Part shown: positions 1,665 to 42,149 of the stretch, in pieces
Numbering within the stretch: the first letter of the stretch is position 1
How the letters are laid out: each line of letters opens with the position of its first letter
IMG/VR virus record: IMGVR_UViG_3300033153_007465
Coordinates: 1 to 42,185 of that record
Length of the DNA: 42,185 nucleotides
Reading direction: 5' to 3' (one strand)
Source of the DNA: a virus
Notes under the pieces: generated by a model
The model's database searches: none
Seen by the model: only the letters and a program-made list of their open reading frames with translations
Told to the model about the DNA's origin: nothing
Position numbers and translations under genes: made by a program

Positions 1665-1805
1665 ATGAAAAAGAGTTTGTTGGTAAGGGTGGAAGCAGCT
1701 ACAAAGAAACGTTTAGATATCTACCGGAAGAAATCCGGGCGCACGTCGCAGGACATTGTTGAAACCGCGCTACTGAGCTTTCTTAAAAAAGCAAAAGTGA
1801 AGTGA
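1665..1805 (+). CDS. small ribbon-helix-helix (Arc/CopG-like) DNA-binding protein
   Basis: 46 residues: a short strand (SLLVRVEAATKKRL), helix A (about 15-22) and helix B (about 27-40, SQDIVETALLSFLKK), the layout of the Arc/CopG/MetJ RHH fold, in which the N-terminal strand contacts the DNA major groove as a dimer. AAGGAGAT ends 4 nt before ATG 1665. The stop overlaps the GTG start of the polymerase gene by 4 nt, so the two are translationally coupled. A palindromic TTAATATTAA lies in its own leader, which suggests autoregulation. Confidence 0.7.
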   Translation: MKKSLLVRVEAATKKRLDIYRKKSGRTSQDIVETALLSFLKKAKVK

Positions 1806-2950
1806 CACAGCATCTCATCAGAACAGTGAAGCAGCTAGAGAAAGCCATAAAGGTTTTGTCTAGCTGCAAAGTTCTTGCGCACGATACAGAGACCACGGGC
1901 CTATATCCCTACCACGGTGACTATGCTTTTTCACATATCTTTGCCAATGCTACGGATGAGTATTACTTTGATTTCTCACGTATACCTCGGAAGCACGCAC
2001 GTAAACTGCAACCCATTTTGGATGATCCAAGTAGGATCATCTTTTACATTAATGCCAAGTTTGACGTGGCAATCAGTAGAAATGACGGTCTTAAATTCCA
2101 CTGCAAGCTAGTAGACGTGCCTGCCCTTGCCCGCGTGGAATACAACAAGCACAAAGCCAATCAGGGCGATTCATTCCTATCAATGGATTACCTAGCTGAG
2201 CATTACTTGGATCGACGCAAAGACGATAAGGTGAAGGCCTACGTCAAAGAGCACGGGCTTTACAAAACCGATGCCATGGGTGATGAGCAAGCACTTGATT
2301 ACGCTGCCGTGCCCATCAAACTAATTTTTCCTTATGCTTGCCAAGACGGACGCTTGACCTATGACCTTGGCATGCGTGTATCCCAACTCATAAATGAAAA
2401 GGCTGATGAGTATGCGGAGGCAAACCCGTACAATAAAACCATGGTCGATCTTTGCAAAAATGAAATCGCCTTCACTAAAGTGCTTTGCAATATTCAGCGC
2501 ACTGGCATGCTGTGCGATGTGCCCTATACCAAGCGGGCCTACAAGCATGAACTACGCGTTTCTGAAACCTCAACCGCTGAGGTTAGGAAAATAATCGGTA
2601 GCAAGTTCAATCCCAACAGCCCTAAACAGATCAGCGCCTACGTCATGGGCAAGCTAGGCTTGCAGTTACCTAAGAAAATGGTAAAAAAGCCTGGTACATA
2701 TAAGAAGATTTGGAAGGGAAATTACAAGACGGATGAGGACACGCTTGCTGCGCTGAATGTGCCAATCCTAAACACGCTGATCAAAGCAAAGAAGGCACAG
2801 AAGAAAGCTAATACGTATTATTCTAACTTCCTTAAATTTAAGGATAGTAAAAACATTGTGCACTGTAACCTGCATCAGGAAACTGCTAAGACTGGTAGAA
2901 CGTCTAGCTCAAAACCCAATTTCCAAAACATGGCTAAGGATGATGTATGA
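1802..2950 (+). CDS. family A DNA polymerase, N-terminal part (3'-5' exonuclease and thumb)
   Basis: 382 residues. A DnaQ-like proofreading domain is visible: Exo I DTETTG (D28, E30), Exo II NAKFD (N84, D88), Exo III YACQD (Y178, D182). The thumb region ends with TGRTSSSKPNFQNM at 364-377, equivalent to the TGR...PNLQN motif of E. coli Pol I. It then stops, where other enzymes continue into the palm. The start is GTG 1802, overlapping the RHH stop by 4 nt. Palm and fingers are encoded by the next gene through an ATGA overlap, so the enzyme is a split polymerase. The N-half should supply proofreading plus the TGR arginine. Confidence 0.92.
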   Translation: MTQHLIRTVKQLEKAIKVLSSCKVLAHDTETTGLYPYHGDYAFSHIFANATDEYYFDFSRIPRKHARKLQPILDDPSRIIFYINAKFDVAISRNDGLKFHCKLVDVPALARVEYNKHKANQGDSFLSMDYLAEHYLDRRKDDKVKAYVKEHGLYKTDAMGDEQALDYAAVPIKLIFPYACQDGRLTYDLGMRVSQLINEKADEYAEANPYNKTMVDLCKNEIAFTKVLCNIQRTGMLCDVPYTKRAYKHELRVSETSTAEVRKIIGSKFNPNSPKQISAYVMGKLGLQLPKKMVKKPGTYKKIWKGNYKTDEDTLAALNVPILNTLIKAKKAQKKANTYYSNFLKFKDSKNIVHCNLHQETAKTGRTSSSKPNFQNMAKDDV

Positions 2951-3660
2951 GTAAGTGGGCAGTGAGAAATTCATTCATTGCACCAAAGGGCTTTGATCTT
3001 TTCTTTTTTGATTACTCCAAGCAAGAGATGCACGTGATTGTGGATCAGTGTGAAGAGATGCCCGTGCTAGAAGAGATGAAGCGTGGCATAGACTTTTACA
3101 CTGCTACTGCAAATGTCATTGAGCGCATAGCCTCTGTGGAGATCTCACGATATGATGCCAAGCAGATTGCCCTTGGCTTGACGTATGGTGAAGGTGAAGA
3201 ATTACTTGCACATAACCTGAAGTGTTCGGTCACAGAAGCCCGTAGGTTTAAGAAGGCATTTTTCAAAGGGCTTCCAAGGGTTGAGAAATTTGCAGAATCT
3301 TTGCAAAAGCAGGTGCGGTATCATGGGTGCATTTTCAATCCGTTCGGGCGTGTGTTGTACTTCAAACGTGATGAGGCATACAAGGCGCTCAACGGATATG
3401 CTCAGGGCACCTCAGCGGATATTACAAAGACTGCAGCGGTAGGTGTGAATCAGGTGGTGGAGGGTAAGCGGTCTGAGATTTGCAACATCGTGCATGATGA
3501 GCTTGTCTTGAAGATTCATCGCAAGGAGCGTAGTCTCATTGAGCCTATTAAAGTTATGATGAGTGAAGCATACCCATACAAGCACGTGCCATTGGCCGTG
3601 GATGTAGAATGGAGTCAAACGTCATGGGGCGCAAAAAAGAAGTGGGCGAGTGGGCAATAA
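2947..3660 (+). CDS. family A DNA polymerase, C-terminal part (palm and fingers)
   Basis: 237 residues carrying the polymerase motifs: motif A DYSKQEMH (D22, E27), motif B R68-YDA-K72-QIA-L76-GLT-Y80, QGTSADI at 153-159 and motif C HDE (H183-E185, catalytic D184). The residue equivalent to E. coli Phe762 is Leu76. In the polymerase this segment directly follows the end of the upstream protein. Its start is a genuine initiation site: AAGGA at 2936-2940, 6 nt before ATG 2947, which overlaps the previous stop as ATGA. The -1 frame has a TGA at 2941-2943, so a frameshift fusion is unlikely. The active polymerase is inferred to be a two-chain complex. Confidence 0.92.
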   Translation: MSKWAVRNSFIAPKGFDLFFFDYSKQEMHVIVDQCEEMPVLEEMKRGIDFYTATANVIERIASVEISRYDAKQIALGLTYGEGEELLAHNLKCSVTEARRFKKAFFKGLPRVEKFAESLQKQVRYHGCIFNPFGRVLYFKRDEAYKALNGYAQGTSADITKTAAVGVNQVVEGKRSEICNIVHDELVLKIHRKERSLIEPIKVMMSEAYPYKHVPLAVDVEWSQTSWGAKKKWASGQ

Positions 3661-29729: not shown

Positions 29730-29935
29730 AATTCCCTAGAGTGTCAGGCTACACACGCCTTGAAACTTACCTGCTGCAAGATGTATATGTGGGGATTTAT
29801 GAGAAGGTGGATCAGAATTACTTTGCTGTGTACTACAACAAGGCAGGCAAGTGGAATTGCCTGGACACTTACGCGGATCTACCAAGTGCCTACATGATGA
29901 TTCTTAAAAAGTTTGGGAGGTATACAGATGCCTAA
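29726..29935 (+). CDS. small hypothetical protein
   Basis: 69 residues, aromatic-rich (YTRLETYLLQDVYVGIYEKVDQNYFAVYYNKAGKWN), predicted beta-sheet then a helix. ATGA-coupled to the previous gene and overlapping the Spo11-like gene by 8 nt. No family recognised. Confidence 0.65.
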   Translation: MKFPRVSGYTRLETYLLQDVYVGIYEKVDQNYFAVYYNKAGKWNCLDTYADLPSAYMMILKKFGRYTDA

Positions 29936-30800
29936 AATCCAATATCAACAATACGGCTTACGTGAGGGAAGCCTCAAGATGATTGCAGCTGCAAATGAAA
30001 TCATCGTAGACTTCCAAGGGCAGGGCTTTGATCTGACATTGCGGCAGCTGTATTACCAGTTTGTTTCAAAGGCCCTCATACCCAACAAGCAATCAGAGTA
30101 TGACAAGCTCGGTGTGGTGATCAACAAGGGCAGGCTAGCAGGCCTCATTGATTGGAATGCCATTGTAGACCGCACACGTAATCTTGTGGGCAACACACAT
30201 TGGAGTGCACCACAGGATATTATGAAGGCTTGTATTAACTCCTACGCCCGTGACAAATGGGAAGGCCAGCCAAACCGCGTGGAGGTATGGATTGAAAAGG
30301 ATGCCCTCATAGGTGTGATAGCAGGCATCTGTGAAGAGCTAGACGTGGATTACTTCTCATGCCGTGGGTACACGTCGCAGTCTGAGATGTGGCGTGCCTC
30401 ACGCAGGCTGCTGCGCTATGAGCGTGAGAAGCAGCACCCCATTATACTGCATCTTGGTGATCATGATCCTAGTGGTATTGACATGACTCGGGACATTCAA
30501 GAACGGCTGCACATGTTTAGATCAACTGTAGAGGTGGAGCGCATCGCGCTGAATATGGATCAGATTGAAGAGCTTGAGCCACCACCAAACCCTGCCAAGC
30601 TCACAGACAAGCGGGCTGCAGCATATGTTGAACAGTATGGCATGCAGTCATGGGAGCTAGACGCCTTGAGCCCACAGTACATCACGGATCTCATTGAGAA
30701 GCACGTGGGCATGTACATTGATGAGGATATCAAAGAAGAGGTACAGCAGCGTGAGGATGAGGAAATTGAGAAGTTAAAAGGAGCCATGGGTGATTTATAA
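29928..30800 (+). CDS. Spo11/topoisomerase VI A-like TOPRIM protein
   Basis: 290 residues from ATG 29928 (GGGAGG 7 nt upstream). The N-terminal winged-helix-like part has LTLRQLYYQF at 36-45, recalling the catalytic-Tyr motif of TopoVI-A/Spo11 (Y42/Y43). A TOPRIM-like core follows: VEVWIEKDALIGV (E123) and HLGDHDPSGIDMT (D178, D180). Then PPPNPAKLTDKRAAAYVEQYGMQSWELDALSP, shared with related phage proteins. No B-type ATPase subunit was seen in this genome, so it may be a stand-alone 'Mini-A'-type enzyme or a DNA-binding/recombination factor. Confidence 0.75.
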   Translation: MPKIQYQQYGLREGSLKMIAAANEIIVDFQGQGFDLTLRQLYYQFVSKALIPNKQSEYDKLGVVINKGRLAGLIDWNAIVDRTRNLVGNTHWSAPQDIMKACINSYARDKWEGQPNRVEVWIEKDALIGVIAGICEELDVDYFSCRGYTSQSEMWRASRRLLRYEREKQHPIILHLGDHDPSGIDMTRDIQERLHMFRSTVEVERIALNMDQIEELEPPPNPAKLTDKRAAAYVEQYGMQSWELDALSPQYITDLIEKHVGMYIDEDIKEEVQQREDEEIEKLKGAMGDL

Positions 30801-32149: not shown

Positions 32150-32355
32150 CACGCACAATAGTTTTTGGGTTTGTGATTCTTAATTTGGTGGTGGCTGTGT
32201 TTATGTTTTCATGCTCACCATCTACTCCAAGGCCACCATCTGCTATTGATAATATGGGCAAGGGATTGCGTCGTTTTGAAAATGATGAAGTGGTTTGTTA
32301 TGTGTACAGAAGCTACAACAGAGGTGGCTTATCTTGCAGGTGGAAAAAACTATGA
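32146..32355 (+). CDS. small lipoprotein
   Basis: 69 residues with a signal sequence ending VFMFSCSP (lipobox near C23), then Pro/Ser spacer and a short exported domain DEVVCYVYRSYNRGGLSCRWKKL with two Cys. Similar exported endings are frequent in phage and plasmid proteins. ATGA overlaps on both sides. Second lipoprotein of the operon. Confidence 0.75.
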   Translation: MTRTIVFGFVILNLVVAVFMFSCSPSTPRPPSAIDNMGKGLRRFENDEVVCYVYRSYNRGGLSCRWKKL

Positions 32356-32789
32356 TCCTCTCCCTAATCCCTGATGAGTTGCATACCAAATGTGAGCCTG
32401 TACCGTTCGGAGTTGAAGATGATTTGAGAAACCAAATCATTGACTCTATGCTTGAATCAATGCGGTTCCATAAAGCAGTAGGGCTTTCATTCAATCAAGT
32501 GGGTGGAACCTCACGCATCGCCGTGTTCAGCTTCATGCCTGATGTAATGATCAACCCGTACATCAGTTGGCAAGGTGCACAGATGGTAACACTCAATGAG
32601 ACATGTGTGAGCTTTCCCGGTAAAGCCGTGCCACTCAAAAGATCTGCTGGCATTAATGTGAATTACTTCAATCGCAAAGGGGATCAGTGCCGTGGTACTT
32701 TTCATGATTTGCAGGCTGTGTGCATCCAACATGAGTGTGATCATCTGCGTGGCATTACAATGATGGACAGGTGGAAAAGACAAAGATGA
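32352..32789 (+). CDS. def: phage peptide deformylase
   Basis: 145 residues from ATG 32352 (ATGA overlap). Deformylase motifs in order: VGLSFNQ at 43-49 (GxGLAAxQ-type), ETCVSFPG at 83-90 with metal ligand C85 (EGCLS-type), and QHECDH at 126-131 with H127, E128 and H131. It would remove formyl groups from nascent N-terminal methionine. Motif 1 is relaxed and motif 2 has T for G; both are seen in divergent phage enzymes. Catalytic residues are kept, so activity is expected. Confidence 0.88.
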   Translation: MILSLIPDELHTKCEPVPFGVEDDLRNQIIDSMLESMRFHKAVGLSFNQVGGTSRIAVFSFMPDVMINPYISWQGAQMVTLNETCVSFPGKAVPLKRSAGINVNYFNRKGDQCRGTFHDLQAVCIQHECDHLRGITMMDRWKRQR

Positions 32790-40437: not shown

Positions 40438-40732
40438 AGAAGAGCAAATCATTCTTGACGCTATTAAGGCAGCAAGAAAAATCCAGACTTTTTTATGGGG
40501 AATGGCTAAAGGCTCATGGGGCTTAGAAGAATGGCGTCGGATGTTTCGCAAGCGCATAAAGAAGATTGATGATATCAATATAGAAAATCCCTACGCCATT
40601 ATAGAATTAAGAAAACGCTTGCTTCAAAATGCCACACTATCAATAGCTTTACTCCATATTTTGCAGCACTATAAACTTTCAGAGCATAGTGATCTGCCAT
40701 CAAATCTACCAGAGTATATGAAGAATGCTTAA
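40424..40732 (+). CDS. hypothetical helical protein
   Basis: 102 residues from ATG 40424: MKLNEEEQIILDAIKAARKI, then WRRMFRKRIKKIDDINIENPYAI and a helical end. GAGAAA upstream. Overlaps the helicase gene by 8 nt. No known domain. Confidence 0.6.
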   Translation: MKLNEEEQIILDAIKAARKIQTFLWGMAKGSWGLEEWRRMFRKRIKKIDDINIENPYAIIELRKRLLQNATLSIALLHILQHYKLSEHSDLPSNLPEYMKNA

Positions 40733-42149
40733 GCCCTACGTCTTTCAGAAAAAAATAATAAAGCGTGCCACTCCAATGGATTGGTACGCTTTATTTATGG
40801 ACATGGGTACAGGCAAGACGCTCACGGTGATCAACTTGCTACGTGCCAAGTGGACACAAGCGGGTGGATTAAAACGCACGTTGGTGTTTGCTCCTATCAT
40901 TGTGCTGCGCAACTGGAAGAAAGAATTTTTACTGAGCACGCAGCTTGAAGCCAAATACATCGGCGTTGTTGAGGGCACAACTGCAAAAAAGAAGCTTGAG
41001 GTGATCAACAATATACAGCACCACATACTCATCATTAACTATGAGGCCCTTAGATCGGAAGATATTAGATTGGCGCTTCAAGCGTGGGGTCCTGTCTGTG
41101 TGGTATGTGATGAATCACACAGAATCAAAAACCCAAATCCAAAAACCAAGACTGACTTCAAAGGCACGTCTACAGAGGTACGGGAAATCTCTAAGCGTAG
41201 CTTGTATCGGTACATTCTTACAGGCACTCCGATCCAAAATAATTTCCTTGATATCTTTGCTCAGTATTTGTTTCTTGACCGTGGTGCTACTTTTGGTGAT
41301 AACTTTTGGAAGTTTCGCAAGAAGTATTACATCAATCGCAACGCTGCTTGGCAGCAAAGCGGTCACGCGGCTGCGTTCCCTGATTGGCAGCTTAATGAAT
41401 CAATGGAACCGGAAATCAAACGCAAGCTAGCTAGAACCTCAACGCAGATGGAGGCAAAAGATTGCGTTGATCTGCCGGAGCTAGTACCCGTGCCCGTTGA
41501 GGTTCCACTGAGCACAGAACAGCAGAAGCATTACGACAAGCTCAAAGCGGATCTGATCACATGGCTTGATGATCAGCCTGACAATCCACTGATGGTGCAA
41601 AATGCACTAGTCAAAGTCATGCGCCTCAATGAAATTGTATCAGGCTACATGCGTCTTGATGATGGCACCATTCACAGCTTCAAGGAAAACCCACGGCTAG
41701 ATCGGCTCATGGAATTGATCAAAGACATGCATCACAAGGTCATTGTGTTTTGCATTTATAAGGAAAATTATAAGCAGATCCGTGAGGCATGCAAAAAGCA
41801 CAAGATCAAGTACACGGAGATCCATGGTGGAGTGAAGGATAAGGAAGGAGCTATTGATGAGTTTAATGACAAGGCTCAAGTCTGTATTGCAAATCCAAAG
41901 AGTGCAGGCGAGGGATGCAACCTTACCGTTGCAAGATACTCAGTATTTTACACACGTGATTTTAATGCCAAAGATTTTTGGCAATCACGCGCCCGTAATT
42001 ACCGTGCCGGATCAATCAAGCAGCACAAAAAAATCACACAGTATCATTTCGTTTCCCCTGCCACGATTGACGAGCACATTATGCAGGCAGTCAAAGACAA
42101 GCAAAAGCTAGCCAAAAGATTGCTTGACGTGCGCAACTTGCTAGCATAG
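40725..42149 (+). CDS. SNF2-family DNA helicase/translocase
   Basis: 474 residues. Motif I MDMGTGKT (25-32), motif II DESHRIKN (129-136), motif III LTGTPIQN (165-172), and a C-terminal domain with VIVFCIYKENY and motif VI FWQSRARNYRAG (about 424-435). This is a compact SF2 translocase like those of many phages, acting in replication or repair. ATG 40725 lies at the end of the previous gene. The final 78 nt recur at 1-78. Confidence 0.93.
   Translation: MLKPYVFQKKIIKRATPMDWYALFMDMGTGKTLTVINLLRAKWTQAGGLKRTLVFAPIIVLRNWKKEFLLSTQLEAKYIGVVEGTTAKKKLEVINNIQHHILIINYEALRSEDIRLALQAWGPVCVVCDESHRIKNPNPKTKTDFKGTSTEVREISKRSLYRYILTGTPIQNNFLDIFAQYLFLDRGATFGDNFWKFRKKYYINRNAAWQQSGHAAAFPDWQLNESMEPEIKRKLARTSTQMEAKDCVDLPELVPVPVEVPLSTEQQKHYDKLKADLITWLDDQPDNPLMVQNALVKVMRLNEIVSGYMRLDDGTIHSFKENPRLDRLMELIKDMHHKVIVFCIYKENYKQIREACKKHKIKYTEIHGGVKDKEGAIDEFNDKAQVCIANPKSAGEGCNLTVARYSVFYTRDFNAKDFWQSRARNYRAGSIKQHKKITQYHFVSPATIDEHIMQAVKDKQKLAKRLLDVRNLLA

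Follow-up and report, generated by a model that had tools for sequence, protein, structure and literature searches.

A Highly Probable Mini-A Protein in a Virus Genome Record: a Relative of Spo11 and of the Topoisomerase VI A Subunit without a B Subunit

The gene at positions 29928–30800 (+ strand) of the window, by which we mean the whole 42,185-base stretch of viral DNA analysed here (IMG/VR record IMGVR_UViG_3300033153_007465), almost certainly encodes a Mini-A protein, that is, a relative of the topoisomerase VI A subunit (Top6A) and of Spo11 that lacks a B subunit. The Mini-A family was reportedly described in phages in 2020, in work attributed to Takahashi, and a short C-terminal motif is said there to set it apart from topoisomerases VI and VIII; to our knowledge, it has no known function. 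The family itself is already known, and the window protein adds a member to it. It is highly conserved and widespread, with relatives found by collection scans in at least 563 viral contigs and, counting one per species, in 128 prokaryote genomes from many phyla.

The reading that we favour, with some confidence, is that of a tyrosine-dependent DNA-cleaving homodimer that would serve phage recombination or replication. In 2025, SPO11 was demonstrated to cleave DNA by itself (PMC11922746). This makes a phage protein of A type that stands alone, and whose active site is intact, a simple test system, both for the action of Top6A in the absence of the B subunit and for whether phages make programmed breaks.

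Results and Discussion

The open reading frame has 290 codons, begins with ATG and contains no internal stops. It is preceded by a Shine-Dalgarno sequence rated as strong (GGGAGG, 29915–29920, + strand), which lies 7 bases before the ATG. With this start, ribosome-binding site and uninterrupted frame, the gene to which the earlier note on this DNA drew attention is real. The preceding gene ends inside the frame, with its stop at 29935, and the following gene overlaps its end, with a possible GTG start at 30790, which places the gene in a compact operon. The ten neighbours that were searched are small genes; eight have no PHROG match and two match PHROGs of unknown function, in line with their description as tiny unknowns, and none of the genes next to it in the window could be recognised as coding for an annealing protein. 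The further characterisation as an accessory operon fits these small neighbours but is a local impression only, because other phages keep the gene in replication and recombination modules.

Elsewhere in the record there are genes for a D5-like protein, for an SNF2-type helicase (40725–42149, + strand) and for a family A DNA polymerase. The polymerase (1802–3660, + strand) is encoded by two reading frames that overlap by four bases (2947–2950), with the exonuclease and the start of the polymerase domain in the first and the remainder in the second. Also present are a polypeptide deformylase gene (32295–32789, + strand; PF01327, E = 2.5e-32) and a gene for a Pam3 gp34-like protein (685–1491, + strand; PF23977); phage Pam3 has a Mini-A gene as well.

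In the PHROG search, residues 3–285 match phrog_6247, 'DNA topoisomerase', with E = 2.3e-112, which together with the invariance of R39, Y43, E123 and D178 discussed below means that the motifs are not due to chance. The protein of Pseudomonas phage NP1 (gp49, YP_009285860.1, 'DNA topoisomerase') is 47% identical over 283 residues (E = 1e-95), which bears out the guess in the earlier note of an orphan A-type enzyme like 'Mini-A'. A single place in the NP1 genome matches the window protein in a tblastn search, and the two proteins have the C-terminal sequence SWELDALSPQY in common. Mini-A proteins are truncated Top6A homologues of archaeoviruses and bacteriophages, and NP1 provides the example drawn in Fig. 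4 of the review (PMC7614492). The window protein is likewise truncated, with 290 residues against about 369, and it is virus-encoded, its source being a virus record. With the 290-residue protein as query, neither the Pfam and NCBIfam models nor a sequence search of the PDB gave a usable match, and none of the PADLOC models matches it.

Relatives were found by tblastn in 76 records of phages and archaeal viruses, many of them already annotated as DNA topoisomerase, topoisomerase VI or DNA binding protein. A distant member occurs in the archaeal virus HCIV-1 (L282:4980-6011); it has GDFNPSG, with Asn as the second Asp of the DxD, and is possibly less active, judging from this substitution. In Parabacteroides phage PDS1 (L286:414-1300), Mini-A is annotated as two overlapping genes, one for the winged-helix part and one for the TOPRIM part, through either gene fission or a frameshift. 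The member in Clavibacter phage 33 (L287:501-1490) has an extra stretch near the first TOPRIM strand that looks like a tandem duplication.

Among 144 non-redundant divergent relatives, R39, Y43, E123, K124, D178 and E243 are invariant, and D180 is kept in at least 90% of the sequences. The earlier note had placed LTLRQLYYQF at residues 36–45 and a core of E123 and GDHDPSGID (D178, D180) correctly, and had proposed Y42 or Y43 as catalytic. Of these two, Y43 is the one that stands, since Y42 is sometimes Phe among the relatives, and Y43 should therefore be the catalytic tyrosine. In Methanosarcina mazei Top6A, Y106 serves as the catalytic tyrosine, E202, D254 and D256 bind the metal, and the R102–E342 pair forms a clasp restraining cleavage (PMC13040014); the exact positions are also found in three of the archaeal Top6A sequences compared. 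The profile alignment pairs the phage TLRQLYY, IEK and GDHDP with TLRELYY, IET and DGDP of Top6A. By this correspondence, R39-Q-L-Y-Y43 (30042–30056, + strand) would contain the clasp arginine and the catalytic tyrosine (R102 and Y106 in Top6A), E123 (30294–30296, + strand) would be the metal-binding glutamate (E202), and D178-H-D180 (30459–30467, + strand) the metal-binding DxD (D254 and D256).

The invariant E243 lies in the C-terminal motif WELDAL (30651–30668, + strand) and is proposed, from comparison by eye, to match the clasp glutamate E342. Because the profile alignment ends at residue 227 and an attempt to extend it failed, we can only infer that E243 is the partner of R39 and the counterpart of E342.

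It is at this point that one can consider a catalytically idle DNA-binding or decoy protein, which would, for example, regulate transcription or block a host TOPRIM system. Such a function would suit the 'DNA binding protein' label used by some phage annotators and the Asn in the DxD of HCIV-1. However, with R39, Y43, E123 and D178 invariant, and D180 nearly so, in 144 divergent proteins, the pattern points to selection for catalysis, and we find an idle protein hardly credible.

The relation to Top6A was evaluated by hhalign, for which 144 sequences of the phage family and 63 of archaeal Top6A served as input. The comparison gives P = 3.5e-6 and a score of 50.4 over 197 columns, while the null controls reach at most 23.8 for 40 column-shuffled profiles, 13 for reversed profiles and at most 17 for 13 unrelated neighbour families. 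For the accepted relation between Top6A and JetD, the same set-up yields P = 2e-7. With shallow alignments, an earlier comparison had not reached significance, which came with the deeper ones. The Top6A HMM ranks the family above 518 length-matched decoy ORFs with an AUC of 0.94, the significance of which is not to be taken at face value since the ranked sequences are related to each other, and when single sequences are compared with Top6A models by HMM, the matches are weak (best E about 0.1–0.2). On the strength of these profiles we take the homology of the phage family to Top6A to be real, so that the profile-profile check suggested in the earlier note came out in favour of its assignment.

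The profiles are also relevant to the suggestion that the protein is a nuclease directed against host or competitor DNA, in chromosome degradation or in anti-plasmid or anti-phage action, perhaps hydrolysing the DNA with the help of a metal as JetD or GajA do. Top6A-related TOPRIM nucleases do act in Wadjet and Gabija (PMC13040014), and the profiles of Top6A and JetD are related, but the phage family has no significant match to JetD (P = 0.14), nor does the window protein match any PADLOC model. Moreover, Y43 is invariant, although an enzyme acting by hydrolysis could do without this tyrosine; neither an SMC protein nor a helicase is a constant neighbour of the gene, and lytic phages retain it among replication genes. 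A nuclease of this type is in our view distinctly improbable.

The AlphaFold2 model calculated from the deep alignment has a mean pLDDT of 95.1 and a pTM of 0.82. Its N-terminal part consists of helix 13–31, a strand at 36, helices 38–47 and 55–70, and strands at 71 and 79, corresponding to a predicted winged-helix domain of residues about 13–80 (29964–30167, + strand), in which R39–Y43 lie on the second helix. This is followed by a predicted TOPRIM domain of residues about 116–216 (30273–30575, + strand) with beta-alpha-beta order, namely strand 116–122 ending at E123, helix, strand, helix, strand 170–176 just before D178, helix and strand. In the model, the order of secondary structure is thus winged helix and then TOPRIM, the pairing whose absence from a structure model would, according to the earlier note, have spoken against its assignment. 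In a Foldseek search of the PDB, no match reached E < 0.001, and Top6A is absent among the best 50 matches listed; these include small TOPRIM, RecR and T7 primase entries, all weak. An initial model, for which 40 close relatives were used, was of mediocre quality (pLDDT 83) and gave uninformative Foldseek matches.

A B subunit was sought with the Pfam models of the topoisomerase VI-B transducer (PF09239) and of the GHKL ATPase (PF02518 and PF13589). None of these is found in the 42,185-base record, which is possibly a fragment, in agreement with the claim that no ATPase B subunit gene is present, nor in 13 phage records carrying the family. The window protein has 42 residues before the tyrosine, 63 fewer than the 105 of M. 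mazei Top6A. The N-terminal latch of Top6 (residues 44–67) is needed for relaxation (PMC13040014), and the shorter N-terminus leaves no room for it. Judged by this length, the latch is probably missing, which makes ATP-driven strand passage unlikely.

These results have consequences for the option of a true topology enzyme, which would relax or decatenate phage DNA either by ATP-independent nicking and resealing or with the help of a host GHKL ATPase (for instance GyrB, ParE or MutL). The relatives are often named DNA topoisomerase, some topoisomerase VIII enzymes relax DNA without ATP (PMC7614492), and nick resealing is possible for SPO11 (PMC11922746). However, a B subunit occurs in none of the genomes searched, the relaxation latch is probably absent, and the hosts span many phyla, which makes a specific host partner less likely. 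We therefore consider a topology enzyme unlikely.

The named neighbours of Mini-A in other phages are mostly replication, recombination and DNA-modification genes, without a fixed partner. In NP1 and PaMx25, the gene closely follows that of an ATP-dependent ligase and immediately precedes that of a Sak4-like annealing protein, with ThyX, RNase H, a Cas4 exonuclease and a helicase nearby. It lies beside a Cas4 exonuclease in phage Fizzles and beside DNA polymerase A in RDJL Phi 1, while ThyX or polymerase exonuclease subunits adjoin it at other loci. The named families among 113 immediate neighbours are mainly polymerase, helicase, Sak4, exonuclease and DNA methyltransferase, none of them frequent. 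A fixed partner gene was sought within 7 genes at 141 loci and was not found, the commonest clusters being a helix-turn-helix protein (21 loci) and an SNF2-type helicase (17 loci). The neighbours are too variable to prove a role.

Mouse SPO11 (PMC11922746) cleaves DNA without partners, as dimers with hybrid active sites, and remains attached to the 5' ends. Mini-A, which has an intact active site, probably has a clasp and lacks an ATPase, would most likely cut as SPO11 does, and from this we infer cleavage, dimerisation and role. In the mechanism that we envisage, two copies would dimerise on DNA, which would pair Y43 of one subunit with the metal site (E123, D178, D180) of its partner. The DNA would be cut and Mini-A would stay on the 5' ends, like SPO11 alone in vitro, while the R39–E243 pair could act as a clasp that holds cleavage low. 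The resulting breaks or nicks would most likely serve recombination-dependent replication or repair of the phage. The cleavage chemistry, which is suggested by the conserved residues, we regard as probable; the role in recombination or replication is a tentative assignment that may well prove wrong.

One can speculate further that Mini-A is the phage counterpart of Spo11, a self-sufficient dimer that would introduce programmed double-strand breaks, with protein linked to them, into phage DNA as it replicates; the breaks would then be processed by exonucleases of Cas4 type and annealed by proteins of Sak4 type. This more specific proposal is rather unlikely as it stands. If it were true, break-initiated recombination would be a normal step in the life cycle of many tailed phages.

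Comparison with Known Systems

JetD/MksG of Wadjet is, like the window protein, placed in the broader Top6A group, as a TOPRIM nuclease, but the profile similarity is not significant and SMC partner genes do not accompany the window protein. Topoisomerase VIII is a type IIB relative that is also found on mobile elements; it has a GHKL ATPase part, whereas the 290-residue window protein has none fused to it or found encoded alongside. Spo11 is an A-type winged-helix/TOPRIM protein, and the mouse enzyme cuts without partners (PMC11922746). On the other hand, Spo11 is eukaryotic and meiotic and works with Top6BL-type partners.

Topoisomerase VI shares the catalytic tyrosine, the TOPRIM Glu and DxD and, according to the model, the order of winged helix and TOPRIM, but its B subunit with GHKL ATPase and transducer was not found with the window protein. 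At the level of the A subunit, archaeal Top6A needs that B subunit, has 63 more residues before the tyrosine and carries a different C-terminal motif, KAEQQAF; the active-site residues and the motif order are nevertheless those of the window protein, and the profile similarity is significant. Finally, NP1 Mini-A (phrog_6247) comes from a different host and genome, and its gene is situated between the ligase and Sak4 while the window gene is found among small unknowns, but the two proteins have equal length, the same catalytic residues and the same C-terminal WELDAL motif.
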